A stretch of 64,000 nucleotides of DNA from Chrysoperla carnea. Its lineage: Eukaryota > Arthropoda > Insecta > Neuroptera > Chrysopidae. Made by a program: the position numbers and the translations under genes. A model generated the notes under the pieces. The model was not told the origin of the DNA, did no database searches, and saw nothing but the letters and a program-made list of their open reading frames with translations. Of the stretch, positions 1,942 through 59,400 are shown in pieces. Position 1 is the stretch's first letter. Each line of letters opens with the position of its first letter. Where the stretch lies: positions 30,342,983 through 30,406,982 of the forward strand of contig NC_058337.1 of the NCBI RefSeq assembly GCF_905475395.1, in the 5' to 3' direction.

Positions 1942-2494
1942 AAATTATTGTTATTTGATTGGATGGTGTCCAAAAACGGGGTGACAGTATATATTGAACT
2001 GTATTCCGTTTTAACCAGTAAATATTATTGATAACTGGGAGTTGCAACTCGTCAAATGGTGATAATAATTCGTACTAGTTAATATCAGAAGAAGACCCGA
2101 ATTCAGTAGTTACAATTTGTACTTGTACTTACTATTTTTTAAGGCCAATAAAAATATTCAAATTCAAATCAGATAAATCCCGCCAACTGGTAATAAAATT
2201 AATGGGCCGTTTTTTCAGTAGTTCCAATTTTAGACCACCTGATTATTTAACATTTGTCAACAGCTGGCAATAAAAGTATAATGAATAAACGCCATCTTTC
2301 ACATCAGTCGCAGTGTATATTGGAACGCACCCTTTATTATAATATAGTCATCACGATCATCAACCTTAAAATCATTCATGTTTACATAAATTGTTAAAAA
2401 TATTTTATATAATCAAAAATTTATTTAATATTTGACCTTGCAATAAAATTTACTTTAAATAATCAATTTCTGGAAGACAGTGAAACAAATTGCA
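1942..2494 (+). promoter_or_regulatory. Upstream region and 5' UTR of the zinc-finger gene
   Basis: No gene is seen here. A TCAGT, the arthropod initiator pentamer, lies at about 2303-2308 (context CACATCAGTCGCAG) and would give a 5' UTR of about 190 nt. An in-frame TAA at 2456-2458 closes the frame before the first ATG at 2495. An ACAG at about 2477-2480 could be a splice acceptor for a non-coding first exon. All are weak, unproven signals. Confidence 0.3.
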
Positions 2495-4687
2495 ATGGAC
2501 CGTGTACGCATTACAAATGAAAACCCAGGTACCAGTAGTGATATGAAATCTGAACACATTCATGAAAATTATAAAAATTCAATTACAATCAACTGTGAAA
2601 ATAATATTAAAATGGAAAAACAATTAAAGACAGAATTTATAATAAAAGAAGAAATATTAGAATACATCGATGTCAAAATAGAAAGTGGACAAATTGAAGA
2701 AAGTCTGGAAGATAGTTTTACAATGGAACATGGCGGCAGAATTAAGAATGAAGTTCTAAACGATTGTTATTCATTGGAATGTATACCAACTAAAAATGAA
2801 AAACTGGAAAATTCAACTACTTTAATTAACTACGAAAATATTAAACTTGAAAAACAATTAAATACAGAGTTCAAAATTAAAGATGAAACAAATTATGAAC
2901 CAGTACAAGATAATTATGAAAAAAAATCATTTTCATGTGATATTTGTAATAAAACATTTACTCAGCAAAGTTCTTTAGTTAGACATAAACTAATTCACAC
3001 CGGAGAAAAACCATTTTCATGTAATATTTGTAATAAAACATTTACTCAGAAAGGTTCGCTAGTTAAACATAAACGAATTCACACCGGAGAAAAATCATTT
3101 TCATGTGATATTTGTAATAAAACATTTACTCAGAAAAGTTCGCTAGTTATACATAAACAAATTCACACCGGAGAAAAACCATTTTCATGTGATATTTGTA
3201 ATAAAACATTTACTTATCAACATAATTTAGTTTCACATAAACTAATTCACAGCGGAAAAAAACCATTTTCATGTGATGTTTGTAATAAAACATTTACTCA
3301 GCATTATAAGTTAGTTTCACATAAACGTATTCACACCGGAGAAAAACTATTTTCATGTGATGTTTGTAATAAAACATTTACTCAGCATTATAACTTAGTT
3401 TCACATAAACGTATTCACACCGGAGAAAAACTATTTTCATGTGATATTTGTAATAAATCATTTACTCAGAAAGGTTCGCTAGTTTCACATATACGAATTC
3501 ACACCGGAGAAAAACCATTTTCATGTAATATTTGCAATAAAACATTTATTATTAATAGTAATTTAGTTAAACATAAACTAATTCACACCGGAGAAAAACC
3601 ATTTTCATGTAATATTTGCAATAAAACATTTATTCATAATAGTAATTTAGTTAAACATAAACTAATTCACACCGGAGAAAAATCATTTTCATGTGATATT
3701 TGTAATAAAACATTTACTCAGCAAAGTTCTTTAGTTAGACATAAACTAATTCACACTGGAGAAAAATCATTTTCATGTAATATTTGTAATAAAACATTTA
3801 CTTATCAACATCATTTAGTTTCACATAAACTAATTCACACCGGAGAAAAATCATTTTCATGTGATATTTGTAATAACACATTTACTCGGCAAAGTTCTTT
3901 AGCTAGACATAAACTAATTCACTCCGGAGAAAAATCATTTTCATGTAATATTTGTAATAAAACATTTACTTATCAACATCATTTAGTTTCACATAAACTA
4001 ATTCACAGCGGTGAAAAACCATTTTCATGTAATATTTGTAATAAAGCATTTACTACATTAAGTACTTTAACTCATCACAAACGTATTCACACCGGAGAAA
4101 AACCATTTTCATGTAATATTTGCAATAAAACATTTATTCATAGTAGTAATTTAGTTAAACATAAACTAATTCACACCGGAGAAAAACCATTTTCATGTAA
4201 TATTTGTAATAAAACATTTACTCAGCAAAGTTCTTTAGTTAAACATAGACTAATTCACACCGGAGAAAAATCATTTTCATGTAATATTTGTAATAAAACA
4301 TTTACTTATCAACATCGTTTAGTTTCACATAAACTAATTCACACCGGAGAAAAATCATTTTCATGTGATATTTGTAATAAAACATTTACTCAGCAAAGTT
4401 CTTTAGTTAAACATAAACTAATTCACACCGGAGAAAAATCATTTTCATGTAATATTTGTAATAAAACATTTACTCAGAAAGGTTCTTTAGTTAAACATAA
4501 ACTAATTCACACCGGACAAAAACCATTTTCATGTAATATTTGTAATAAAGCATTTACTACATCAAGTACTTTAGCTCAACACAAACGTATTCACACCGGA
4601 GAAAAACCATTTTCATGTAATATTTGCAATAAAACATTTCGACAAAAAATTTCTTTAATTGGTCATAAACGTATTCATACTAAATAA
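2495..4687 (+). CDS. C2H2 zinc-finger protein with 21 tandem fingers
   Basis: Probable DNA-binding nuclear protein of 730 aa in one uninterrupted exon. The frame opens at a GTG at 2480, but the first ATG, in a reasonable initiation context (GCA ATG G), is at 2495. Residues 1-145 are acidic and Lys-rich; I see no ZAD, BTB or KRAB domain, but a motif of about 27 residues around MEKQLKTEF occurs twice. From residue 146 to the end there are 21 fingers of exactly 28 residues, all C-X2-C-X12-H-X3-H. Ten of 20 linkers have Ser or Leu in place of the Pro of TGEKP. Fingers 9-14 and 15-20 are a duplicated six-finger block. Target sites are unknown. This is a lineage-type polyzinc-finger gene, so I give no symbol. 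It could be a recent family member expressed at low level; nothing suggests a pseudogene. Confidence 0.93.
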   Translation: MDRVRITNENPGTSSDMKSEHIHENYKNSITINCENNIKMEKQLKTEFIIKEEILEYIDVKIESGQIEESLEDSFTMEHGGRIKNEVLNDCYSLECIPTKNEKLENSTTLINYENIKLEKQLNTEFKIKDETNYEPVQDNYEKKSFSCDICNKTFTQQSSLVRHKLIHTGEKPFSCNICNKTFTQKGSLVKHKRIHTGEKSFSCDICNKTFTQKSSLVIHKQIHTGEKPFSCDICNKTFTYQHNLVSHKLIHSGKKPFSCDVCNKTFTQHYKLVSHKRIHTGEKLFSCDVCNKTFTQHYNLVSHKRIHTGEKLFSCDICNKSFTQKGSLVSHIRIHTGEKPFSCNICNKTFIINSNLVKHKLIHTGEKPFSCNICNKTFIHNSNLVKHKLIHTGEKSFSCDICNKTFTQQSSLVRHKLIHTGEKSFSCNICNKTFTYQHHLVSHKLIHTGEKSFSCDICNNTFTRQSSLARHKLIHSGEKSFSCNICNKTFTYQHHLVSHKLIHSGEKPFSCNICNKAFTTLSTLTHHKRIHTGEKPFSCNICNKTFIHSSNLVKHKLIHTGEKPFSCNICNKTFTQQSSLVKHRLIHTGEKSFSCNICNKTFTYQHRLVSHKLIHTGEKSFSCDICNKTFTQQSSLVKHKLIHTGEKSFSCNICNKTFTQKGSLVKHKLIHTGQKPFSCNICNKAFTTSSTLAQHKRIHTGEKPFSCNICNKTFRQKISLIGHKRIHTK

Positions 4688-9539: not shown

Positions 9540-10964
9540 ATGTTAATGAATTATAAATCGCATATAAAACATTTTTTGAAAATTACAAAATATTATAAAA
9601 AATGGATTCGCCAGCACAGTTCACAGACAAATTTAAATTTAAAACCACCTTGGAAGGTTATGTTTTTTGGAACCGATGAATTTTCAGTATGCAGTTTAGA
9701 CAAATTATACTCAACATGGTTAGTTCACTTTGTTGATAATTTAAATAGAAAAGTTTTTTTCGAGTTAAGGCTTTAATCTTAAAATTTTTATTCTAGCAGA
9801 GAAGGGAGTGTTATCAATCAGTTAGAAGTTGTAACTTCAGTTAAGAATAAAGCGAATCCGGTACAGAGGTATGCAGTTTCAAATAAAATACAATTTCATA
9901 ACTGGCCATGTGGAAATGTAGACCAGAAGTTCGATATTGGAGTTGTTGTATCATTTGGAAAATTAATTCCTAAATCTATTATTCATGAATTCCCCTTGTA
10001 GGTATACACCTTGGAAATTGAAGGCGTAATAAAAATTATGGTTTAATTAAACTGTTTATTTCAAAGGGGGATGATTAACGTTCATGCAAGTTTGTTACCA
10101 CGCTGGAGAGGTGCTGCTCCTATAATTCACGCTTTGGCATCAGGAGATGAAGTTACAGGAGTTACGATAATGCGTATTCAACCACATAAATTTGACTTAG
10201 GAGAAATTATTAAACAAAAATCAATTGAAATTACTGACAATACGACTCAAGATCAATTAACCAAGGAATTAGCGAATATAGGAGCTAGTTTACTTGTGGA
10301 TACAATTAAGGAACTACCAACTTGTATAAAAAATGCGACTCCACAACCAGAAAATGGCGTTACATATGGTAAGAATAGACTGCAAAACGATTAACGGAAA
10401 GAGTCACCCTTCCGAATTTAAATTCTCAATGCACATTATCATTAAAAAAAGGATGCGTTCTACAAAAAATCTATTTGATTGTTAATTCTTAACTTACTGA
10501 CTGGACTTTTCCGAAAATAGATGCCTTTTCAGAAAATGTACTCAAATGCCATTTTTTTGATATTATTCTTTTTATTTTTAGCACCCCGAATAAACATTCA
10601 ATCATCTCGAATTAATTGGTTGATGATGGATTCGAATACCATCTACAATTTATATCGTGCATTAAAAGGATTGTATCATTTGCATTGTACTTGGAAAGGA
10701 ATTCCTGTAAAATTTATCGATGTTGGACGTTTAAATACGGAATCAAGCTCACAATTTACAAATAATCCCAGTTCACAAATTTCGAATATTCCCGGCTACG
10801 TATATTATAGTAAAAACCACAATCATTTACGAATACAGTGCAAAGATGGAAAGTGGATTGTAGTAAATGAATTAATTGTTCATGGGCGAAAACCAATGAA
10901 AAGCAAAGATTTTTATAATGGTTTTATGTCAAAATGTCATCCAAAACTGCATATGTTTACGTAG
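9540..10964 (+). CDS. Mtfmt: Mitochondrial methionyl-tRNA formyltransferase
   Basis: Transfers a formyl group from 10-formyl-THF to Met-tRNA(Met) for mitochondrial translation initiation. Coding exons: 9540-9718, 9797-9997, 10067-10368 and 10582-10964. The introns are GT/AG and the phases join to give 1065 nt and 354 aa. The first 30 or so residues are Lys-rich with no Asp or Glu, fitting a mitochondrial presequence. PPWKVMFFGTDEF opens the formyltransferase fold. The signature NVHASLLPRWRG holds the expected catalytic N131 and H133, and D170 in HKFDLG completes the triad known from bacterial Fmt. The C-terminal domain starts at about residue 228 with APRINIQSSRINW. The frame passes only through the second-exon acceptor CTAG at 9793-9796; the nearby CAG would create a stop codon. 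Introns are 69-213 nt, much shorter than in the minus-strand genes. All key residues are intact. Confidence 0.95.
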
Positions 10965-15315: not shown

Positions 15316-15871
15316 CTCCAAATAAGGAGATTGGTCATTGGGATTGAATATTTTTTTCTGTCACTATCTGTCTAAAATCCAAAAAACTAAAAAATTTATA
15401 TTGTTGTGCATAGTTAGTTTTTCAAGTAAAAAATTAATTGAAAGTATGTTCATTGGATAATAAAACATGCTTTCATCGCCTCATTACCTGAAAGATTTTA
15501 TTCAAATTTGTGGGCTCGTGGGCTCTAATCATAGCTAATTATAAATTAAAAAATAAACGATTGTAAAACAATTTTGAACACCTATTATTATTAACATTTT
15601 ATAAAACATAAAAACACAATAATTATATACAAATAAAGAAACGTATAAAAAAAGTTTCAAAAGCCATTATTTTGTTTAGTAAACAAAAAAAACACATTCT
15701 TATCACAAAATGTGGTATAGATATTTACAATATTTATGAATTTCAGTAATTTGGCATCATGATTTTTATTGTACTTTTCCACACCATTTTTATTTCCAAT
15801 TACAAATAAAACAATACGAGACACACACGCACACAAAGTCCAATGCACAGCAGATGAGTTGCAAATAAATA
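15316..15871 (-). other. Probable 3' UTR of the alternative Gpdh transcript
   Basis: No gene of its own. On the minus strand AATAAA occurs at 15789-15794 and 15765-15770, about 80 and 105 nt past the alternative stop at 15872-15874, so a transcript ending here is plausible. Confidence 0.4.
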
Positions 15872-15914
15872 TTACAATTTGGAAGAAGTATGCAACAATA
15901 TATCACTCTGATGT
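15872..15914 (-). CDS. Gpdh1: Alternative last exon of Gpdh encoding a -SKL C-terminus
   Basis: On the minus strand a strong acceptor (TTTTCTTTTTTTACAG) ends at 15915. Exon 6 of Gpdh has a good donor, GTAAGA, overlapping its own stop codon, so that exon can end at 18685. Joining the two keeps the frame and replaces the stop after Val350 with HQSDILLHTSSKL and then TAA, giving 363 aa. Ser-Lys-Leu at the very end is the canonical type 1 peroxisomal targeting signal. Drosophila Gpdh is known to use alternative short C-terminal exons, so this layout fits the family. The 2770-nt intron and the use of this exon are predicted, not shown by transcripts. Confidence 0.75.
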
Positions 15915-18439
15915 CTGTAAAAAAAGAAAATGACAAATGTTGTGGTTAGCGACATGCACATGTATTGTTAAGGTATATATTAATTATTTTAGAGGATGAA
16001 ATAATGTCAATTGTTAAGATCATGAAGAAGATGAAACAAGGTAAGCGATTCGTATTTAGACGGAAAATAATTATATACTGTTTACTTTCCAGTTACAACT
16101 TTTTTACAACTCAAATTCATCAAAATCTCTAACGGTTCAATGTATTCGGAGATACGAAAAAAATGGAAACATAAATTATTTTTCAGGATCATTTTTTATG
16201 AAAAAAAAATTCCACAGCAAAAAGTTCTTACGTGAAAGATAATCTTATGAGAGATAAAAAACTTTTAAATTAGAAAGTTGTTCCATATAAAAAAAAGTTA
16301 TATTTTAGTTAGGAAAATGATTACGAAAATCGAATAGATTCAATAGAAATTGAATGCAAAATAGGCACAATGATAAACCATTAATTCTACCCATTATTAA
16401 TATTGTTTTGTTATTCGGCTTCTGCGAAATATTTAGTTTACGAAGGCCAAATTTTCAGTTAAAATTATTCCTCTATCTCTTACCACTATCAGAAATGGAA
16501 TGAAAAGCATTATTTTCCCGAATCTATTCGGTTTTCCATATTTTTATCTCTCAACAGAAGTTGACATTTAAATGATCCTGAAAGTAAAGATCAAATTTAA
16601 AGTTACTATAGGCGACCTTTAATTTAAACCAATTTTGTCTGAAATAATTTTCATCGTAAATGCGAACTCGGAAAGTTATTTTTGTTTCAGTTTTTCACAC
16701 CCAATAGGTATAATAAAAATTATGTACAATGTTAAATTTGAATTTTTCAAAATAATACTGCAAGCTTATTTTGTTTCATCTTAATTTCTTTGTACAATAT
16801 AAATCCAAAATTTATCTTAATTAGGAGTATTAATCATAAATTAAATTTCAATAAATAAAATAATCCGTTTTTAGGTTTATACAGTTTGCAAAGCAATAAC
16901 TAAATTTGGTGTAATATTCATATCAATATCTCGCAAATCTGTATGAGCATAAAAACGAAAAAATCATATTATGGAACTTTTCCAGACGTAGAATAAGTCC
17001 CAGGCACAATGATATACCATTCATTGTAAATGGAAATCATAAATAATGCATATATGATAAAACCGAAATTATTGAGTTAATTATATTATATGGCTATTCA
17101 AGATAAATGGAATGTCGAAATCATATTAGACCTGAAATTAATCTAATAATAGTTAATAGGCGATTTTATGATATTATTAATAATACAGAAAAACAACATA
17201 CATTTGGGAATGAAAGAATGATTGGATATAGGAGTGCGTATTGAATATTAGAGAAGTATTATTAATAAATTCCAATATTTTTGGGAGCAAAAATCCTAAA
17301 AACAAAATTAATGAAAATAATTAAATTATGATTATAGCAGTATTTGCGTAAATAGGTCACAAGTAACAAAAACACACAGTTTTTCAAAATTTAGAATTTG
17401 ATTTTGATCAATTTTTTATTAACAATTGTCCATTTTGTATATATGGCAGAAAACTGTACATGCTATAAAAAGTTTATTCATCTAATTAACAGTTAATAAA
17501 ATTCTTTTAAAAAAATAATACACTTTTTTGTTTAATATTTACAATAGTTTGTACTGTGATTAATTTACTAGTCTTTTTTTGGTAACAATTTGTTTCATTT
17601 AAAAATTTGCGTATATATTAACATTCCAATGTTGGAAATTTTACTAAGGATCGGTTATATCACTTTGAAATTAAAAAAAAATTAAACATTTTATTCGTTT
17701 TAATATGTAATTGATGACTTGACAATTAATACGATGCTTTAATTCACTGCCCCTCTCTTTTGTTTTTCAGTAATTTGAGGTTGTCGGGATATAAAATGAA
17801 GCGTGCAAATGAAAAAACTAAATCAAAATTTTGCTCTGGAATTTTAAAAGATTTTTGTAGCGATTTAATCAATAGTAGTGATCCCCGCGTGCGCATTTAA
17901 CGCAACCTGGTTGTACACAAACTCTGAAATTTTTTTATTCAAAAATTAAAACCAGAATTGACTTTACCAGATTTTTGTTTGTTGATAAATAGAGTATAGT
18001 TATAATTACGTTATTGAGCGCACTTAATGCGCATTGGAAAAAGAAAATGAAACTAGCAAATCTGACCAAGTTGACCCAGATCAAGTAAAGCTGACCTACT
18101 CCATTCTCCTATGAGGAGTCTTAAAGCAGAAATTTTATCTTTAAACGTAATAGAGTAGTATTTGCACAACGCCGAAAGATGGACTAGATACCTACGCTTC
18201 ATGGACTAGATAACCATTAAAATATTAAAGTTTAAAAAGGTTTGGTTTTCAATTTAACAATCTCATTTACAATACAAATTACGGATTTTTTTTATACCTA
18301 TTTTTAGATAAGGAAATTAAAATTTTAAGATAACTTTAAATAATAAATGAAGAGCAATCTCAATATTCACTTCAAAGTGATGTAACCTAATTTTGTGATT
18401 AAACCTAATCACTATTAATTTAATAATTAAACTGTACAA

Positions 18440-18445
18440 TTTATT
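18440..18445 (-). promoter_or_regulatory. Candidate polyadenylation signal for the short Gpdh form
   Basis: AATAAA on the minus strand about 235 nt past the exon 6 stop codon, inside the intron used by the -SKL form. Confidence 0.3.
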
Positions 18446-18680
18446 AAACTCGATTGAACTTCAAAAATTTAAATTGATAGAAGCCATGTGAGAGGAATTT
18501 AACTTTTCTATATTTGCTAAATTCAAATATAAGTTAAATTTTGACGTCAGTAATTCACAACTACTACATAGTTATTAAAAACGTATTTAAAAAAAATAAT
18601 TTGGTTATTAAAATGCAACTAGAAAATGGTTAAAGAACAAAATAAGAAAGTCATAGAAAACAAATTAAGAGGGGATTATC

Positions 18681-21600
18681 TTACACAGTATCTGGGTTAC
18701 AGCGAATTTGATCAATAAAAACATTTACTGGAATCTGTCCTGTACAAATTTTATGTATAGCAGTAAACAATGGAAAACTGAAAATTAAGAATAAAAATTA
18801 GATTATAATTTATTTAATAACACAATAAACGAAACCGATATAAATGCCTGACTGTTTTAAGATCAATAAAAATATAACTTTTTTGGTTTGTTACAAGATC
18901 TGTTAAACATCGGGTATTTGTAAAAACAATCGTGCAATTTAAAAATATTATGATGAATCATTTTATAAATGTATGGATTGTTTACGAGTACAAAGTGATC
19001 ATTCGTGTTTTGGTCCATTAAGTAAATATTTTTTCCAGGATAGAAGTCAATAAAGAATACTATTTGATCGTTTTGAAAATTATGCGTTAAACAATATGTC
19101 AAAAAAGTCAGAATTGGAGAATCATGTAAATGTGATTGTATAAAAGTCAGACATTTATAAACACACGATATAATCGAGATACTAACGAGGCTTCCATATT
19201 TTTATTTTTCAACATATAATTGACTTCTTCGGCAGTGAATGGTCCCTGTAATTTTTGTCCGTTAAGCATTTCTTCCTCAAGTTCACGAATTGATTTGCCA
19301 GTTTTGGCAAAAGCTTCTGAAACACGACGATTACGTCCACCATAACAAGTTGTAATTAAATCAGCTACACCACAACTTTCAAAAAACGTAGCCAATTTAC
19401 AACCAGGGTAAAACACATCAACGAATTTAATCATTTCCATTAATCCTATACGAATTACAGCTGCTTTTGTATTATCACCCAATCCCAATCCATCGACAAA
19501 ACCAGCACCGCATGCTACAATATTCTATAGAAAATTTGAAAAACAAACCATTGTTACACTATATATGTAATAATTTATTATGTAAAGGATCTCTCAAAAT
19601 TATTATGACAAATGCCTCTCGGTTAAATTTTCTGGGAAATATTAGTTCTTGAAGAAAATAAAATCAAAACTCAAAAGACCTTAGTTTTCAAGATATTTTA
19701 CCTGAAAGTTGAAAAAAAACAAAAATGTTTGTGCACAAGCTAGTGCACTACTAGCTTTTGTATATTCACCACACATATAATTTTGAGTTTTGGATTTATT
19801 AAAAGGCCTTTTGACTTATTATACTTTTTTTCAAGAACTTGCATTTCCTAATTCCAACAAGAGCCATTTTCTATAAGGATTCTGTAGGGTTCTTTTAGAA
19901 ACAACTAACCTTTAAAGCACCACAAACTTCAACAGCATCGGTGTCATCAACAACAGTTACCCGGAAATTGTCTGTTTGAATAAGATCTCGTAAAAGAGGT
20001 GAGAGTTTTTTATCACGGCAACCAATAGTTGTTTCACAGAATTTTTCTTCAGCAACTTCATTAGCTAAATTTGCACCCATTAATACAGCACATGCAATTT
20101 TCAATTGTCTTGTAATAATGCTTGAAATTAAGTCAATTCCACCGCCTTCGGCTTTGTCGAATCCCTATGAATAATAAAGAAAATTTTATTTAAGATGCAC
20201 AAATCAAAATTTTTCCATAACTTATTTAATAACTCTTAAATAAACGAAAAATTAACTTAATGCAGTGTTTCTGGCTTCGTGAAATTAGGATTTTTTTTTA
20301 GGATTGTTGACTAAGTCGTTTCAAATATAATCCTTTTGGGATAATTTTATCTGCTAAGATTTCGTGTTGAGTATGCCTAAGGAAAAAGTATAAAGCCGTC
20401 CGTTCTCGGTGATGATTTCTCACAAATTTTTTACTTTCTAATGATTCTAATATGGGGCAAGGTAGGAGAACATTGAAAGCTGGCAGATTTAGATATTAGA
20501 ACATGGTTTTTCTCGAGTCGTTCACCTTAAGCTGAAGTAAACATCTACAATGATGTTAATCTCAGGCTTGCTCGGCTGACCAAACAATTTTGGGCAGCAC
20601 GTAAGTCTACATAAGTTTAGTTTATAATTTATGCAACTGAAAAAAATATGTTTTTTGCGACCTGTGTCATTTGTTAAATTTAAAAAGAACTTCTTGATAA
20701 TAGACAACTCGTTAAAATATTAAAATAATTTTTTTCGAGTTAATTTTCAAGTCTTTAATAAAAGGTAGCCATAAAATTATTATGAAATTAATTAAAGATA
20801 ATTGAAACCAGTAAGTTTATTCAGGCACCCAATATTATATTACACAAAATATATTAGCATTAAATCAGTTTACCGTAAGTGCATAACATGATGTATGTGA
20901 TAATAAAAATGAAGTATTAGTTCAGTCAGAATTTACTCAATACCAATTACACCAACAATATCAGTTACAAATTGTTATCACAAAAGTAAAAGAAGCTACA
21001 AATCATTAGTCAAAGGAAAGCAACTGTGACCTTCGGAATTGATAATATAAAACTACACATATGTAAAAATTAAAATAATAATAAAAAATACAAACCTTGA
21101 TAAGAGATAATCCAATTGCGGTTGGTTTAATTTTACCTAATAAAGATGAACACAATGGTCGAATAAATTGATGTGGCACAACAAATATTAAAATATCGGC
21201 AACTTTTGCTGCTTCAACGACATCTGGTACAGCAACCTTTAAAATTGTTCATATATTATTCTAAAATTTCTTTAATTGATTAAGATTTTAATTAAAATCT
21301 TAGATTTATAAGCATAGAGGGAAGAGTTATGCTAGATCATCAATTCATTATTAGTAGCCTACCAAAGGTAAGATGAAGTAGCAAAGATAGGGTGAAGTGA
21401 GTATGTTTTTATACCATGTATATATGTAATATATATCAAGGTATACTAAGTTTAGTCCCGAGTTTGTAACGTTTAAAAATATTGATACTATGAACAAAAT
21501 TTAGTATTCATAAAATCATCTTATTAGTCCATTTTCGGTTGTCTGTCTGTCTGTCCGTCTGTCATCACGATAACTCAAAAACGAAAAGAGATATCAAGTT

Positions 21601-23984
21601 GAAATTCGAGTCGAAGGTCGAGTTCGTAAATGAGCAACATAGGTCAATTATATCTTGGATTCGTAAGGCTTATCTTGTAAATCGTTAGAGATAGAACAAA
21701 AGATTAAATGTAAAAAATGTGCCTTATAAAAAAATAAGCAACTTTTGTTTGAAACATGTTTTCGTAAACATCACAGTTTACCCGTGAGGGCGCAAATTGT
21801 ATAGTTTGTATTATATTGGAATATTAGTTATGTATGTGTAATGCGACAGTGTAATCAACACTGTCTATACATGGTATTTCAACAATTAACTCAGTTGATT
21901 GTTGGTTTTCATTTGTTATTTTATAAGAGTATTAATAATTTTTTGGGTCTATAGTAGAGCAAAGTTGTTTCTAGTATGCTGGAAAGGTTCAACTTGTTCC
22001 TAAATACTAAAAGATCGTATTCGATCATCTGACGCCAGAAGTTAGTTCATTCGCGTAAATTGAATAAGTATAAAACAAGTTTTTGAGTCGATAAATCGAA
22101 AATAGTTGTATCCTTCCTGACACATCGATAAAATGTGTTACTTCTTGATGTGTAAGAACGTACTTTGTACTGCAGGCAAGTTCAATAAACAACAGTCAGC
22201 TCCGTCTCTTGTTTTGTTTACAAAATAGTCAATTAACATATCAACGAGTTTACAAATACTCTTTGGTTTAAAATTATTCATTATCTTATCACTTAGAGAA
22301 ATCCAAAGTTGAATAACAAAATATATTTATTCAAATAAAACTATGAGCCATTTTTGACTATGGACTTTATATCATTACAATTAATATTCATATAATACAT
22401 TTTTTAAATAAAGAAAACCTAGCGGGTCTATTATTTCAATTTTATCAATGACTTAAATTTTTTGTAGCTTTTTTATTTTATTTTTTTCGATTGCCCTATT
22501 ATTTTGAAAAGTATATTTGCCAAATTTTTAAGAAAACAATACACAAAACATCAAACCGAAATTATTAAATTTTATTTTCAAAATTAACGCGTAAAAATAA
22601 TTTTATTTGGATTCTGAATTTATTGAATTCAATCGCTCCCGCTATTTGTTATTTGAACAAGAAACTGACCTCTTTCTATACTGGTCAGTAAGAGCGAATT
22701 ATTACGTCATGTCAAATTTTCAATCTAAATGGCCTGTTTTTCAGAAATGAGAATTTTGTCTTCAAAATATATTTTTTATTATATTTAGATTACCTACATT
22801 AAAATGGACTCTTACGATTTTATTTATTTATTGGAAATCGAACCAGAAAACAAAAAAATTAGTGAAATCTTATATAGAAAGATCACGAATGTGCAATAAA
22901 GAATTAAATCATATTTAACAAAATTAAGGCTCATATTATATTTAACAACAACAAAAAATTCCTTACTAATATACTATCTTAAGACATAGTAATTATAATT
23001 AAAAATAGAAAAGTTATAAAGGTTTTAAATGGCAACGTTTATTTAGCGGCACGTTGTATTACATTGTTAATTTGTTAATTCATATTTTATATATACTTTT
23101 GAAACACCTGTATGTATAATACCCAAAAGTAAAAAAAAGGTCTTTTCAAAAACAAGCTCAAGGTACTTTACCAGTATAAGTATATTGTTAGAAAGTTGAT
23201 CAAAACTAGTAATTATTTTGCTTAACGACTATAGCTTAAGGACAATATTAAAAATGCATTATTAAAAATTAATAATAATAACAGTCAATAAAATTACAGA
23301 AATCTGTAATGAATTCAAATTTTAAAGTATTTAAAAAAAACTGTAGGTTTTCATTGATAAAAAAGAACATGATTATAGATTAAAATATATTTTGCTAAAC
23401 TATTAATTCATTAAATTAAATCAAGGTTAAAACAAGGATAAGAGCGTAGCGGCAAGATATCTTTCCGCTATCAATTAGCATATTTATTTGAATTGTGCGG
23501 TTCAATACTGTACTCTTATCGATAAAGTAAAAATATGTACGTACGACATTTTCAGGGAGTTTGTGTCCTGGAAGATATTTTACATTTTCGTGTGTAGTAT
23601 TGATAATTTCAGTTAATTTTTTTCCATCAATCATTTCTTCATATACATACATTGTAACACGATCTTCAAAATAATCGAGACGCTTGCAATTCACTCCAAC
23701 AATTTTTGCAATTGCGGAGCCCCTAAAATATTTAAAATATTTTTTCCCTTAAAAAATAAAAGTAAATAAATACATCTAACTAACCTCTAAATCATATAAA
23801 TATAATTTTATAAACATATTTAATTTAATGTAAATTTATTTAATTTAATGAACTTAATTTGAATTAATTAAATCAGAGTACACTAAATATATATTTATTT
23901 ATAATTAAATAATTACGTAAGAAAAATAGCGCCTACTTACCAATTTCCGGACCCAATAATACATACACTTTTTTTATTTGGCAT
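18681..23984 (-). CDS. Gpdh1: Cytosolic NAD+ glycerol-3-phosphate dehydrogenase
   Basis: Interconverts dihydroxyacetone phosphate and glycerol 3-phosphate with NADH; with the mitochondrial FAD enzyme it forms the shuttle that feeds insect flight muscle. Coding exons on the minus strand: 23941-23984, 23545-23722, 21096-21236, 19910-20164, 19187-19524 and 18681-18777, total 1053 nt, 350 aa, all GT/AG with matching phases. Exon 1 is only 44 nt and carries the Rossmann motif; G11, G13 and G16 form GxGxxG, with GSGNWGS split by intron 1. Active-site lysines are K121 (SLIKG) and K206 (GALKN). Family signatures [32 protein letters not shown] and [18 protein letters not shown] are intact, and [13 protein letters not shown] is insect-like. 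The 350-aa form ends IRCNPDTV, and its stop codon overlaps a splice donor that leads to the alternative exon at 15872-15914. Intron 2 holds a transposon at 21410-21917. Confidence 0.96.
21410..21917 (-). mobile_element. INE-1/Helentron-like repeat, copy 7 (in Gpdh intron 2)
   Basis: Starts ATACCATGTATATATG and ends with the hairpin followed by TTTTCATTTGTT. A small deletion lies near 21610 beside the CGATAACTC block. Same strand as the host gene. Confidence 0.7.
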
Positions 23985-30100: not shown

Positions 30101-33100
30101 AGAAAATACGTCATTATAAATTAAGCCAGTATAACAACTGAATATTCCCATCAAGAAAATAATATAACGTCCTCCGAAGAATATGTTCCATATCTTAAAA
30201 AATATTAAGTTAATCAGAAGAAATCTAAAGACAAAATTACACAACCTTTATGTATGTACATACTATACTACAATGCACTTTAAGTTTTATATAAAATCGA
30301 ATGGAACACATGCGTGCGTTTTATTTTCAACGTTGTTTCCAACTTTTCCTAGTTACTCAACACACGTTGAGTAATTAGGAAAAGTGAGCCGGATACGTTT
30401 TCCCGCCAGCTAGTATAAAAACTATTTTATAAACAGCTATTGTCATTTTTATTATTAGACGGTTTATTTTTTCATAAAATAGTCAAAATGAAACTTGGGT
30501 CTTTGAGCTATTGAAAGCTTGAAGATCCGGCATAAGTTTAATATCGATTTACGTAGCAACAAAAAAATTATCATTACACACTGTCTACAAAAATATGAAA
30601 TTTATTTATAATCTTACTTCGCTTGTTGATTTTTGGGCAGCTAAGGGTTTTTCTTTAAGAACCATCCAAGCAGCAAACAGCAACATAATTAAGCCATGGC
30701 CAAGATCACCAAACATAACAGCAAATAAAAATGGAAAACTGATGATTGTATATGGAGTTGGATTCATTTCCCGGTATGAAGCAACACCGTACGCGTCAAT
30801 TAATGCTTGGAAACCTGACGTGAATTTATTAGTACGGTTATACGTTGGTGGATCTTCGTATGTGCCCATTCGATTTAAAATCGGCGGTACAGAACTTCCA
30901 CTCCGTTCCTGAATAATTAAATGTATATTAAATATTATTTAGAATAGATATTAAATTTCAGATACGAACAGTTCCTCGTCGTAAAGCCAATTGAATTGTT
31001 TCTAAATCCAGTAATGGGACCCAGCATTCAGCAATTAAACATTTTTGAGTTACATCCAAATTAAAGAAATTTAGTGTATGATAAATCGCTTTGATTTTGC
31101 GAACTTTAATGAACCAATTTTTAATGTTTTTAGCAGCAGCTACTAATACACGATGACGATGGTCTTGAGTTTGTCCCAAAACCTAAAAGACAAAAAAAAT
31201 AAATATCGAAAATTTTTACTTAAAACTACGTATTTTAATACCAACCGTATTTAAATCTTCAATACGTGTCATGACACCCATAGCCATTTCACGGCGATCA
31301 GCTGGTGCTTCTGGGCATGGATATAAAGTTGCCCGAAATCCTTCACATATTTTTTTAACACGAGATTTCAACTGATCTCCTTGGAAGAAAATAATAAATA
31401 CGGACTTGAATACGTTGTCACCCTAAAATAGGTATTTTTATAAGACATCTTAATCTGAATATTAATTTATAATTGGTGTTATTAGTTGTTAGGTTGACAC
31501 AGACCCAGGCTTACGCGCGTGAACTTTACTGTCCTAGACTTAACAGAGTTGGCACTATAAGTAGTTTTAGCAACTTCAAACTATACCATTTTTTAAAGTA
31601 ATGTGTATTATATGATTTTATAAAACAGAAAAATATAACATTTATATAATATGAGGTAAACGTTAATCTCTATCCTCCCAGTGAACATTTTTCTACCAGT
31701 TTCCACTTTTTTACGTAAAAAATAATATAAATATGATGTATATGTTACTTTGCAAGATAGCACTTCCTTCATATTCACATCATGTCATTACGTAAAGTAG
31801 TGGGAACTTGTAACATTTGTATGAGTGACTCATTCAAAAATTCCTGATGCTTACCTATTTTCCAGTATAATTTTTACTTTTCCCTGACTTTTTTGAGTAC
31901 CCCAAAATCACAAACAAATTTTTGTTTTGGAATTTGATAAAATTCGATATATAAAGTAATTCTGACCCAAAAAATACCAGAAGTTATCACTTGACTTTAC
32001 GTTCTCCATCAATTTCCGATCAATCATATTCCCTGATAGTTTCATATTTTTCCGTTTTGTGGACACTATTGTATTGCATAAACTATTTTAAAAAATCATA
32101 TTGTATGAAGTTACTAAATTTTCTACCAATAGCGCTAGTTCTGTGCTGCACTTCGATCGCAGCAGAAATATCATTGATTTGATCATTATTTATTGCATAC
32201 TGTACAATTGTCCGATACATTATTCTATGAAATTGTGTATTTGAGATATTGTACAGATTAATTATCAGTTACAAGTTCACTGATGAGAGTGAAAGTGGCG
32301 TACCGTGAACTCAAGGAGTATCAACAGAGATCGTGAAACTACGAGCCGGGTCAATCTAGCACTAATATTTAGAGAACTTACTGAAGATGGATCTTCAAGG
32401 GGAGTTTCAATTTCAGCTTGACGTAAGAATACATTTCCACGGCAGGCACGCCATAACATACGTTCAAAGGCTGGTAAGCGCTCCCGTAAAATAACTCCAG
32501 CAACAAAACTAATTACGCGTAAACATTAAAATTATTAGCTTACATTTAAATAGTAATCATTTTCTAATATTCATATCAAACGCCATTTACAGTATTAAGG
32601 CCAAGAAAATGATCAAATGAATTAAAATAAGTTGAAAATAAAAGAAACGTTTTGATATGAAAGAGTTTTTTAATGATATTCATGAAAAATTTATAAGGCG
32701 AATATCAATATTAAATATTTTACATATTTTGATATTCATCTTACGAATTGATGATGTTACATTATGAAACTTTCAGTTAGAAGGGTCAAACAGTCCTGCT
32801 TGTTGTGACTCTCTTACAAACACGTTAGTACCACGCAGTAAAAATACGTAGATTAAAATAACAATGAATGTTTTTTTAAAAGGCCAATAATTTTTATTTC
32901 TTGATAAGGAATTCAAATAATATAAAAAAACATAATTTCCAATTGATTGATATGAAAATGAAAAACATATTTTTCTTCTAACTGGAAATTTACATCAGCT
33001 AGAGTAGGCAGAAAACATCGCCGCTGCAAAAAGCTATTTTAATGGATAAATGGAAAAAATTAAAATATTTGATACTTCTTAACAGCTGCAAAAATATTTT

Positions 33101-53400: not shown

Positions 53401-56400
53401 ACAAATAACTATTAAATAAAACGTACATTATTAATATCATTATCATTTAGTTGTTTAGCTTTTAGTTTTTTTAATTTTCTTAGTTGTATAGTTTTATAAA
53501 TCGGTATGCCCAATAACAAAATCGGAATACAGCAAACAGATATAGCGATAAATACAATTTGTATTGAGTATTGGCCTTTATAAAAGGATTCGGTGCATTC
53601 CACTGCTTTTACTCTGCCATCATCTTTGAACAACATCATATTAATGAATGTTATTAAAATATACGGAGCACATCGAGGGCTAACTGCAACTTCGTTCGCT
53701 AAAATTTTAAACAAATTAATACGTTTTTTGTAATTAGAAATTACTTTAGAGAGACACATAAGACAGCAAATGCTGGGTAAAAGTTTCTGTTTCGATTTCT
53801 TTCCGTATTCGATTCAGAATACTACTCTGAATAACGATCAAGAGTTTGTTGGGTAAAAATCTGATCCCAATTTATTATATTAATTTTTTCTGCTAAAAGA
53901 AAGCCCTGCGAAAAAATCAAAGTGACGCGATTATTTTTATATCATGTTTATATGAAATATATATATATATCAAGGTATACTAATTTTAGTTCCAAGTTTT
54001 TAACACTTAAAAATTTTGATGCTACAAATTTTGGTATAGGAAAATCACCTAATTAGTCCAATTCTGGTCTGTCCACTGTTTTAGGACGTGAAAAGTGAGG
54101 TCGAGTTCGTAAATGAACAACATAGGTCAATTGGAATCTTGTAGAGCAGAAGTTGAAATGTAAAAAGGGCAAAAATTAGGTTAGATACTTTTTTTAGTAT
54201 GTTTATATAGTTTGTATACAAATTAGTTTGTATAGTTTGTTTTGGTTTACTTACTGTGCCCATTTAATGCCAAACTTTGTCAAATTTAATGATAGTTCAT
54301 TGTTTTCCTTGAAAATTGCTGATTTGAGTTTTCCAAACATTACAGTAAACTATAAAATCTCCAATCAAATTAAAAAAATGTAATTTAGCATACTCTTTTA
54401 CTTTATTCAGGTTCATCTATCGGATGTTTATATAGAAATAAATCGAATCCGAAAAATTTTATCGAATCCTAGTTTTGCGAGCTTAATTGTGCTCACCGAT
54501 TTATACGTACCATCGTCGGTTGCTTTATATTTAATCCATTTAATAAACATTAATACAACCATATAGAGAAACAAAACACAGAAAAATAGAATTTGGGGAA
54601 TAAATTCAAAAATAATGTTGATTTTCTTCTTAAAAAATCTATAAAAAAATGTTAAAAATTTAGTGCCCATCTATAGCCAAAAGTCAGCTAAAGAGTACAC
54701 ACAAACCTTATGGAATTTGGGTCCTGATTAAATTGTCAGAATTTATGATATGCGGTAGTTCTGAGTATTCTCAATAAATTTAATAAAATGTTTTAATGGG
54801 CATAATGGAAAAGAATGAACAGCAACCACAATAATAAATAAAAGCGAGTTTTAAGGTTTCATTACCAGGTAACCATTTTAAATACCACAAAAACAGATTT
54901 TCTTGCGTCAAAACGCTATTTGAAAGTCGCTATTGTTTGACATTACAGAAAAATAATCTTTGGATATACAAAATTTATAGGCCTGGTTGACGCTTTCACT
55001 GGCATTTTATTTATATCATTTTCTTTTCATAATTTCGTTATCGTATTCGATATTTAAGATAAAATTATCAACATTCTAAAAAAATTCAGCCGGATTTAAA
55101 TAATAAGTTTAAAAATTATTGCCAGGTGCTGTGAGATTGCGCATACCAAAAATCCTTCAAAAAAATAAAATCTACATTTTACGTTAAGAGACTGTTCGTT
55201 TCAGAAGCTTGGACTATTTCACAAACCTCCGGAAACTGCAAACAAGAAAAACTTTATGGAAACAAATATAAAAAAGTTTTCACCTAGAAAGGGTGCGAAA
55301 CACAAATTGGATTTTTTTTGTTTGTTTGTTTTTTTTTTTTTTGAAAAATTTGGATTACAAACATCTCCGAAAATATCTAAGCTCCAAAAGAAGTTACGGA
55401 GGAAATGTACCATTATTTATCTTTGTGGCACTTGAGATTAATTGAGAATGCTCAGAAGTCCGAGCTACAATATACCAAAAATAAAATGCATGCAATTTAT
55501 CCGAGTCCCACTTTCCTTTGGTTTGTACGTGGTCATTTTTTACCTGAAATTTATAAAACTTAACGATAAGCCAAATAACATATGAGCAACTCCAAAAATA
55601 ATTGAAAGTTTCATTTTGAATGAATTGTGAACATAAATTTTATTTCTTGACACTTGCCAAATTGGATCTATTCCAAATGGATAAGGATATTGCCAAAAAT
55701 AAGCCGTGCTTGGATTTAATTGTATTTCTTTGTTGTTACGAAGTAAAGTCGATATTTCCGATGCAGTATAATTAGGTTTCCAATAGGATCCAAATATGTT
55801 TATCGATTTGGAAAATATATCGTTGTAAATAAGGCCAGCATGGCAACTGAATAATCCCATTAGTAATATCACGTAACGTCCACCAAAAAATATTTTAGCT
55901 ATCTAGAAAAATGAAAATACATTATGCAAATATCAGAGAGAATAAAGTGAAAACAAAAATCTATAATATTATTTAAAATTTTATTGTGGACTTAACAAAA
56001 TTTAATTAATAACTTACGCCAGTAAAATCTTACAAAAAAAAAAAAACTAAAATCGCAAAACACGACCTAGGGGAGTGTGAAACTACATTTTGTTAGCAAA
56101 AACAGTTGTGCTATCTGCGCAATCCTTTAAAAATTGCAAAATTTTCTGACTTTTTCTGTTTTTGCAGTTTAATTAAAAAAGCATGAGATTTTGACATTCG
56201 TTGCTACTATCATTTTGAACTTATATTTAATTGGAAACAATTGTCGCCAACCCACAGTTTTTTCCACAGTGTGTCCAATAATTTTTGAGATATGATGCTT
56301 GAAAAATGTAAATGGTTTTCAGAAATGTTAAAATTTTGAGTTTTGCTTATGTTAAACCGTTAGAGTTAGAACAAAAGTTACTTCTTGGGTACATAGGACC

Positions 56401-59400
56401 AATCTTCTAAACCGTAATAGCCCAGAGAAATAAGACAATAAAAAAGCCGATCTCTTAAAAAAATTCAAGTGAAGTTTTTTCACCGGGATTATCTTTATTA
56501 GGATGCAAGAAATGACCTATGAAAAGTCCATTGCAAAATCATGTGCGCAAAAAAAAATTCAAGGTCATAGATCGCGAAAATAGGTTTTTTTCAAATATCT
56601 CGTAAACTATTAAGTTTATCGCAGTTTTAGTAATTATAAAATTTGTTTGTTAGTTAATTTTATATAAAAAAGGTTCTTTATAAAATATCTGCAGGAGCAA
56701 TAGTTCTCAAAAGAATATTAAAAAAATTAATTTTTTTTTAAATATTTTTTTTATATAAAATATTTTTGATATTTTTCGTGTAGCAAAGTATGCGACTTAC
56801 TCTGACTTTTTCTCAGTTAAATAGTTCGAAAACTATTGCTTCTACGGAAATTTTGTACAGAACTTTTTTTTGTGTAAAATTAACTAACATAGTTTAACAA
56901 ATAACAAATTTTATAACTGCTAAAACTGCAATAAACTACTTACATAGTTTACGAGATATCTGAAAAAAAACCTATTTTCGCGACCTTTGACCTTGAGTAC
57001 CTATTTTTTTGCGCACATGAAAAGATTTTAAGCAGAAAAACTTTTAATTTTATTTACTTGGGTTTGTAAGAGATAGAATAAAAGTTTAGATATAAAAGTT
57101 AAAATATAAAAAAAATGATCCTTATAAAAAATAATCTTTTGTTGGAAACAATTTTTCATAAAAATCATTATTTTCTCGTGAAGGGGAAAATTAGAACAAA
57201 ACTTTGGAGTCGATTTTCTCCAAAAATGTGTAGGTAGCTTCAACTACTGAACCTTATGAAAAATTTATGAAAAAAAAAATTTTATCTACAAAAAAAGAAA
57301 TACTGAGAAAAATTTTCGAAATCTAATAACAATGGGGGTCGGAAGGCGATGCAAAGCTGTTTTTTTTTTTGTTATGTTATTTGGACGTATGAGGGGAGTG
57401 TGAAACTACGTTTTGCAAGCCAAAAATAATTGTACTACTTACGTATTACGTTAAAAACTGAAAAAAGTCCGAAAATTTGAAGCACTACTTATTTTGCTTG
57501 CAAAACGTAGCTACGGATAGTGTGAAACTAGTTTCACACTCTTCTAAGGGATACAAATAATATACCAAAAACGCATCTTTGCTTCGAGTTTTGGAGACTC
57601 ATACTGATGTAAATTTTAATCGAGGCTTTGACTGGCGTAAATTTACAATTGAAAAACTTAAACTCGACTACAGAGAAGATGGAAATAAAATATAAATTTA
57701 AATCGAAAAACTACCAGTAAAAACGACTGCTTAATAAGTATAAATTATAGCAGAATATCAAAATCCACATTCCATTTGAAATGTTTTGAATTAATAATAG
57801 TCGTAATAATAATATTATTACATATTATGCAGTCAGAGGCCAAAAAAATTTAGTGAGAAAGAAGAAAATTTTCAGTGTTATAAATATAGCAAATAAAATA
57901 TTATTTTTACATTTCAATGTAATAAAAACAAAACAGTCTGAGAATACTCCTTATAGTGATAAATAGAACAAAGTCATTAGCCATACTTGCTCACCTCGCC
58001 AAGTGATTTCCTTTTAGCAATTTTTTTTTCATATATAACCATCCAACTAGCAAACAAGACCATAATTAAACCATGACCAATATCACCAAACATAACACCA
58101 AATAGAAATGGAAAAGTTATAATTGTATAAGGATTTGGATTTATTTCTCGATATAAAGCTACACCGTATGAATCAATTAAAACTTGGAAACCGTGTGTAA
58201 ATTTATTTGTCGGATTGTATGTCGGCGGTTTTTCCTGTGTCTCAATTTGATTCAATATCCCCGGTACATTACTTCCACTTTGATCCTTCAAAATTACAAT
58301 TATATTAAACTTATTACTTATTATCGTGAGTCCATAATGAAGTGAAAATTCAATGATAGTAAAGATAAGTTTGATCATGAAGAAAGGTTTTGCCTGCAAC
58401 CGGAGTGTCGCAAAAAAAAAAAAAAACAAACAAATAGAACGTTTATCGTTCTTTTAAGTGTGTTTTTGACAATTTTTACGAAAAATAAATTGGCAGGAAA
58501 TTTACAAGTTCATGTAAAAAGAAGCCATCCCTACCGACAGTTGCAAATTTGCCTTCATTTTTCAAAATGGTCTAAAACACAAAAATTAAAAAACTGAATT
58601 TCTATAATTTTGCATTGAAACCAGGATATTAAATCCTGAATTTTTTTTAAATTATGAAACCTTTGTTTATAAATCTTCCCAAAGAAGTTTTTACTCCATT
58701 ATGTGCTTCACGGTCTATTATTCTTCTGAATACGAACAGTGGTTTGTTTTAAAGTCGATTGGATTTCTTCTAAATCTCCCACTGGAACCCAACATTCGCC
58801 TATTAAACATTTTTGAGTAACATCTAAATTAAAGAAATTCAATGTATGATAAATTGCCTTTATTTTGCGAACTTTGATAGACCAATTTTTGATATTTTTA
58901 GCAACAGCAACTAGTACACGATGACGATGGTTTTGAGTTTGTTTCATTACTGTATTCAGGTCTTCTATACGTGTTATGACACCCATAGCCATTTCTCGGC
59001 GATCAGTTGGCGACTCGGGGCATGGATATAAAGTGGCGTGAAAACCTTCGCATATTTTTTTAACGCGAGACTTTAACCGATCTCCTTGGAAGAACAGAAT
59101 AAACACATTCTTGAAAACTTTGTCACCCTAAAATAGACAAAAATATGGAACTTTTGAATAAAGAATAGATTCTGTAGTGATTTAAGTTTGCAAAATACAA
59201 GGTAAAAGATCTGTTGATTCTGATTAAATCGCATACCTGAGACTCCAAGGAATTAAAAAATTAATATATCCACTTTGAAGATTCGTGCATTTGCATTCAA
59301 AAATTTTTGTCATAACAAAGATAAGTAGATTACATATTAAATTTAAAGTTGTATAAGATAGAAGATATGATCCTGTCCTCCCAAAAGGTTTTTGGGTTCC

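Follow-up and report, generated by a model that had tools for sequence, protein, structure and literature searches.

The window analyzed here, the whole 64,000-nucleotide stretch of the lacewing Chrysoperla carnea genome between positions 30,342,983 and 30,406,982 of contig NC_058337.1 on chromosome 1, carries on its minus strand the gene for NAD-dependent glycerol-3-phosphate dehydrogenase (NAD-GPDH, gene Gpdh), whose last intron appears to be optional. In the reading that we consider likely, transcripts that keep this intron would encode a cytosolic enzyme of 350 amino acids (aa), whereas those from which it is spliced would encode a form of 363 aa that ends in -SKL, the canonical peroxisomal targeting signal of type 1 (PTS1), and would be imported into peroxisomes. 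GPDH would then probably be a second NADH-shuttle enzyme sent to lacewing peroxisomes, in its case via splicing. The case clearly adds to a strategy already on record rather than founding a new kind of system, with the canonical -SKL making it a cleaner case.

The gene structure and reading frames are established directly from the window, where six constitutive GT-AG exons on the minus strand together encode the 350-aa protein (coordinates are window positions throughout):

23941..23984, minus strand: coding exon 1, with the ATG and a phase-2 GTAAGT donor, from the sequence.
23545..23722, minus strand: coding exon 2, from the sequence and protein comparison.
21096..21236, minus strand: coding exon 3, from the sequence and protein comparison.
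19910..20164, minus strand: coding exon 4, from the sequence and protein comparison.
19187..19524, minus strand: coding exon 5, from the sequence and protein comparison.
18685..18777, minus strand: coding exon 6, the last constitutive exon, ending ...NPDTV at the position of the human GPD1 C terminus, from the sequence and protein comparison.

The encoded protein scores 161 bits with NAD_Gly3P_dh_N and 154.4 bits with NAD_Gly3P_dh_C (Pfam cut-offs of 23.1 and 25, respectively), and the best of its 12 matched PDB sequences is the cytoplasmic GPDH chain 1x0v (490 bits), which we take to be human GPD1. Lacewing residues 4-348 align with this chain and are colinear with it along the whole length; in the same alignment the 350-aa form stops at the human C terminus, and the 13-residue tail of the longer form lies past that point. 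A six-frame search of the 559-Mb assembly with the GPDH N-domain profile, scoring only the best candidates from a first-pass screen, returned three matches, and these correspond to exons 2, 3, and 4 of Gpdh itself. Gpdh is the sole NAD-GPDH locus detected in the lacewing assembly, and any peroxisomal GPDH would therefore be expected to derive from it.

The 3′ end of exon 6 (18777-18685) reads ...CCA GAT ACT GT, and the intron that starts at 18684 begins GTAAGATA. An earlier note on this DNA had described the last constitutive exon as running into ACT GTG TAA, so that the stop falls within the donor, which is right base for base, and had placed a downstream acceptor, and an exon ending in -SKL in the only frame compatible with that donor, at a junction whose coordinates (18685/15914) we likewise find to be correct. 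Immediately 5′ of 15914 stands the acceptor TTTTCTTTTTTTACAG, and exon 7 (15914-15872), its frame fixed by exon 6, reads (V)HQSDILLHTSSKL up to a stop. The spliced junction (ACT GTA CAT CAG ... TCC AAA TTG TAA) gives 363 aa; it adds 13 residues and ends in SSKL before the stop, an exact match to [SAC][KRH][LM]. This C-terminal tripeptide pattern is the PTS1 consensus, of which -SKL is the best version. A Drosophila review also names -SKL as a PTS1 (PMC7477296). Cargo of this type presents the tripeptide on a flexible, exposed linker and is imported through PEX5 binding. One gene holds two frames, of 350 and 363 aa, with the PTS1 on the long form only, and the elements of the proposed switch are as follows:

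18679..18684, minus strand: donor GTAAGA, unspliced GTG TAA, with the stop of the 350-aa form at 18683-18681.
15915..18684, minus strand: intron 6, optional, 2770 bp, read from the sequence; retained, or shortened by polyadenylation, it would give the short form.
18440..18445, minus strand: first AATAAA past the short-form stop, a candidate intronic polyadenylation signal (motif match).
15945..15949, minus strand: CTAAC branch-point match, 35 bases 5′ of exon 7 (motif match).
15915..15934, minus strand: exon 7 acceptor, a pyrimidine tract plus CAG, ranked 2nd among the 335 AGs of the 9-kb gene region by a hand-set score.
15872..15914, minus strand: coding part of exon 7, an alternative terminal exon read from the sequence, carrying the PTS1 -SKL.
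15765..15794, minus strand: two AATAAA motifs (15794 and 15770), 78 and 102 bases past the -SKL stop (motif matches).

Judged by sequence motifs only, splicing to exon 7 has a usable donor, an acceptor, a branch-point match, and a poly(A) signal. The exon 7 acceptor outscores all five constitutive Gpdh acceptors, which rank 8, 9, 24, 133, and 190 of 335; the hand-set score separates poorly, yet the exon 7 acceptor falls on its good side. More acceptor-like sites lie within intron 6 on the minus strand, at 16577 (rank 7 of 335), 16938 (rank 6), and 17295 (rank 11), and such intron 6 sites may give rise to further short alternative Gpdh tails.

The overlap of stop and donor, by comparison, tells only what the unspliced RNA would encode. 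It arises because a phase-2 intron with a GTAAG donor always reads NNG TAA when unspliced, as is the case for two of the three phase-2 donors in Gpdh (exons 1 and 6), the third being GTTAG. As independent evidence for a switch the overlap was rejected, since it is automatic for such donors and is found at exon 1 likewise. Readthrough of the 350-aa stop was rejected, too, as a source of the PTS1, the first extension being DNPLLICFL, with no such signal. For the exon 6 donor the U1 pairing energy is -4.3 kcal/mol, within the range of the other five donors (-10.7 to -2.9 kcal/mol), and such middling pairing would suit optional use.

It is nevertheless important to ask how readily a tail of this kind would appear by accident, as the -SKL could belong to a random open frame that happens to follow a CAG with a pyrimidine-rich tract, in a gene that makes the 350-aa form only and has no last intron, an explanation that we regard as unlikely. 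AGs were scanned over 9 kb past the donor with the first 60 bases excluded, a strong acceptor being defined as [CT]AG with at least 12 pyrimidines in 15 and a tract without AG. Seven of the 357 AGs pass, and one of these seven leads to a PTS1 tail; the six others give VCILITKLFFLNTFLITM, VII, VYKQLKF, VGKPALLKGCLLYYEFCY, VFLIPEEILKKIF, and VIKILRLKP, none of them PTS1-like. Simulations were run on 4000 sequences of 4.5 kb from a second-order Markov model trained on the same stretch, counting tails of up to 40 aa, under thresholds that were chosen post hoc with the site already known. Chance fares best under the loosest of these (10/15 pyrimidines), where SKL tails arise in 0.8% of the sequences and tails fitting [SAC][KRH][LM] in 2.7%, but the stricter settings bring SKL down from 0.125% (12/15) to 0/4000 (CAG with 13/15, and again CAG with 12/15 and CTAAY), the corresponding values for the broader pattern being 0.5%, 1/4000, and 0/4000. 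Across the window, SKL ends 4 of the 6705 stop-to-stop segments of 3-40 aa and [SAC][KRH][LM] ends 18; as the exon 7 frame is one of the four, three further short segments end in SKL, which again speaks for chance, as do the ordinary U1 pairing of the exon 6 donor and the automatic origin of its stop. Against it, an acceptor, a branch-point match, and an AATAAA coincide at a single site, and three Drosophila GPDH isozymes are made from one gene by alternative splicing, as stated in PMC4708006.

The remainder of the lacewing genome offers a peroxisomal setting for the predicted 363-aa enzyme. A profile search finds the Pex14 N-domain, and acyl-CoA oxidase is represented by six exon matches, with the C terminus readable at two of the six loci. 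At one of these (L014) the frame that directly follows the matched exon ends in SQPLPSKL and a stop, and with the two joined the acyl-CoA oxidase score grows from 86.1 bits to 109.8 bits, the profile match reaching position 176 of 181 instead of 149, for which reason the -SKL frame is taken as the last exon. The joined exons have human peroxisomal ACOX1 as their best PDB match, in an alignment that stops at residue 109 of the 141, some 13 residues past the join, and the tail exon alone matched no oxidase when compared with the PDB. The noise level of such readings can be gauged from locus L010, with its chance-looking 10-residue frame ending in SKL.

A second line of context comes from malate dehydrogenase. 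The Ldh_1_C domain has six matches in the genome, five of which could be read to the stop that follows the domain; four of these (L016, L018, L019, and L020) show no PTS1 past that stop, and one (L017) has an SKL extension, its stop context being TGA CTA GGA and its in-frame extension LGNGSKL before the next stop. The top PDB matches of the L017 protein are cytoplasmic malate dehydrogenases (450 bits), which identifies it as cytosolic MDH1. In PMC4207609, TGA CT is given as a leaky stop context and the cryptic PTS1 of MDH1 as highly conserved in animals and found in Hydra. By its sequence, the lacewing extension is a cryptic PTS1 of the conserved MDH1x kind, and it points independently to the delivery of NADH-shuttle enzymes to lacewing peroxisomes. 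The whole coding sequence of this MDH1 (L017, L026; G000:C3:27372503 region) is one open frame.

In light of these results, the earlier note's central claim, that one gene makes a cytosolic 350-aa and a peroxisomal 363-aa enzyme, holds insofar as two possible C termini are predicted, one with a canonical PTS1, while the overlap of stop and donor that accompanied the claim supplies no extra evidence. The two-C-termini reading is supported because a good acceptor comes with a branch-point match, the tail is unlikely to arise by chance, no second GPDH was detected, and the genome has an -SKL acyl-CoA oxidase, a Pex14 domain, and the MDH1 -SKL.

Several observations weigh against this reading. The hand-set acceptor score is a poor classifier, its top site (19701) bordering no Gpdh exon, and two constitutive acceptors rank just 133rd and 190th by it. 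The strength of the exon 6 donor is within background, with 54 of 427 GT sites equal or better in U1 pairing. A processed copy of spliced exons 6 and 7 was sought across the whole assembly, and only the two genomic exons matched. The other readable acyl-CoA oxidase end, at L011, is FLKSNL and a stop, so that one of the two readable ends carries -SNL, which does not fit the standard PTS1. Finally, peroxisomal trafficking of Drosophila Gpdh1 is stated as unconfirmed in the review (PMC7477296).

The last of these points also bears on a further explanation, to which we give only a slim chance, namely that exon 7 is real and its tail serves a non-peroxisomal role, in the manner of the QNL of Drosophila GPDH-1 at the myofibril, or that import in vivo is negligible. 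In the fly, the flight-muscle isoform is described in PMC9604208 as strictly requiring its QNL tripeptide for myofibril localization, and the variant PTS1 is given in PMC7477296 as unconfirmed in function. The lacewing tail, however, is an exact prototype PTS1, in a genome that has -SKL on an acyl-CoA oxidase and on the MDH1 extension. That intron 6 is instead removed from nearly all transcripts, such that nearly all GPDH would end in -SKL and the 350-aa form would be a paper reading of unspliced RNA, is very improbable, for although any phase-2 GTAAG donor yields a stop in the donor and the exon 7 acceptor appears strong, a single GPDH locus was found and both the glycerophosphate shuttle and the synthesis of lipids require a cytosolic GPDH, the short form ends at the human GPD1 end, and AATAAA signals lie inside intron 6.

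The proposed optional splicing to an -SKL exon has its closest counterpart in Drosophila Gpdh1, where alternative terminal exons follow the last common exon, an arrangement that lacewing exon 7 would fit. Fly isoforms are put at 350, 353 (with QNL), and 363 aa, -PKL closing the longest; if this holds, exon 7 may go back a long way in insect evolution. Both insects have a cytosolic NAD-GPDH from one gene, with a C-terminal PTS1 predicted in the lacewing and credited in the fly, there a variant signal that PMC7477296 attributes to Wojtas et al. 1997. The novelty implied in the earlier note is diminished accordingly. The lacewing differs in that its tail is the canonical -SKL and in that a pattern scan for a QNL-type exon start (AG-N-CAR-AAY-YTN-stop) found none within 12 kb past the donor; according to PMC9604208, the QNL tail that places GPDH-1 on the myofibril was found in no species outside Drosophila. 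A literature text search with the letters of the tail gave an unrelated match only, and no report of a lacewing GPDH or of a GPDH ending in -SKL was among the matches listed in open-licence literature, which is no proof of absence.

Hidden peroxisomal signals are also established in other central-metabolism enzymes. Fungal GAPDH and PGK acquire a cryptic PTS1 by alternative splicing or readthrough (Freitag et al. 2012, as relayed in PMC3798809 and PMC9549241), with the splicing-made signal known for GAPDH; like the predicted lacewing form they are routed to peroxisomes, but they are other enzymes in another kingdom, and the lacewing would draw on a complete terminal exon, used optionally and lying 2.8 kb downstream. 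Nearer to the lacewing, alternative splicing of Drosophila melanogaster Nurf-38, an inorganic pyrophosphatase, produces a predicted C-terminal PTS1 (PMC4207609), again an insect protein with a splicing-made signal at the C terminus, although a different enzyme. For pyrophosphatase as a second splicing case in the lacewing, no convincing PTS1 exon was seen in the 9.9 kb adjoining its pyrophosphatase exon. MDH1x shares with Gpdh the theme of a peroxisomal redox-shuttle enzyme with a hidden PTS1 in one gene, and lacewing MDH1 has the same layout (TGA CTA ... GSKL), but its signal is reached through stop-codon readthrough instead of splicing. In Saccharomyces cerevisiae, Gpd1 is an NAD-GPDH divided between the cytosol and peroxisomes, where it acts in an NADH shuttle beside Mdh3 (PMC9549241); the division resembles that proposed here, whereas the yeast enzyme uses PTS2 and its distribution is controlled by phosphorylation.

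From these comparisons and the gene structure we infer how the junction might be used, how the enzyme might be imported, and what it might do there. With intron 6 kept, or with polyadenylation inside it (the first AATAAA is at 18445), translation would stop one codon past exon 6 and give the ancestral cytosolic 350-aa enzyme; with intron 6 spliced out, exon 7 would contribute its 13 residues to a 363-aa form ending in -SKL, which the PTS1 receptor would bind and which would then be imported. GPDH is a dimer, and mixed dimers could bring short subunits into peroxisomes. Peroxisomal GPDH would turn dihydroxyacetone phosphate (DHAP) and NADH into glycerol-3-phosphate and NAD+, reoxidizing the NADH of β-oxidation, and MDH1 would arrive in the same compartment via stop-codon readthrough. 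We know of no settled account of NAD+ regeneration in insect peroxisomes, although no search was aimed at one. An alternative role for the peroxisomal enzyme would be to tune DHAP for ether-lipid synthesis, the context in which the Drosophila review discusses Gpdh1 (PMC7477296).

More speculatively, it is possible that insects hold two peroxisomal NADH-shuttle dehydrogenases through different single-gene tricks, a fixed leaky stop that is read through in MDH1 and optional splicing in GPDH, and that the splicing is regulated by tissue or feeding, so that GPDH would be the adjustable arm, reoxidizing peroxisomal NADH and setting DHAP for ether lipids; we put this forward tentatively. The canonical -SKL exon and the MDH1 readthrough -SKL make the lacewing a setting in which the question of peroxisomal GPDH is testable. 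That the variant PTS1 of the fly is related to a stronger insect signal is a guess only.

An Rfam scan of the window gave zero matches at the gathering score. Away from Gpdh, the V-ATPase 116-kDa subunit (PF01496) is represented by exons of two adjoining copies on the minus strand, at 30606-30938 and 53412-59127. Downstream of Gpdh, at 10047-10964 on the plus strand, lies a formyltransferase gene with PF00551 and PF02911 that probably encodes methionyl-tRNA formyltransferase. A 742-aa open frame at 2459-4687, also on the plus strand, looks by eye like C2H2 zinc fingers arrayed in tandem. The whole-assembly searches further met bacterial-type genes near the end of chromosome 1, which represent symbiont DNA, either inserted or joined in assembly: a cytochrome oxidase subunit I of 532 aa with an intact frame, Rickettsia-like by eye (L006, C1:138884626-138888966), whose genes adjoin a repeat-rich stretch; a 317-aa malate dehydrogenase (L018/L027, C1:139.249 Mb); and a pyrophosphatase match (L022, C1:138.540 Mb).

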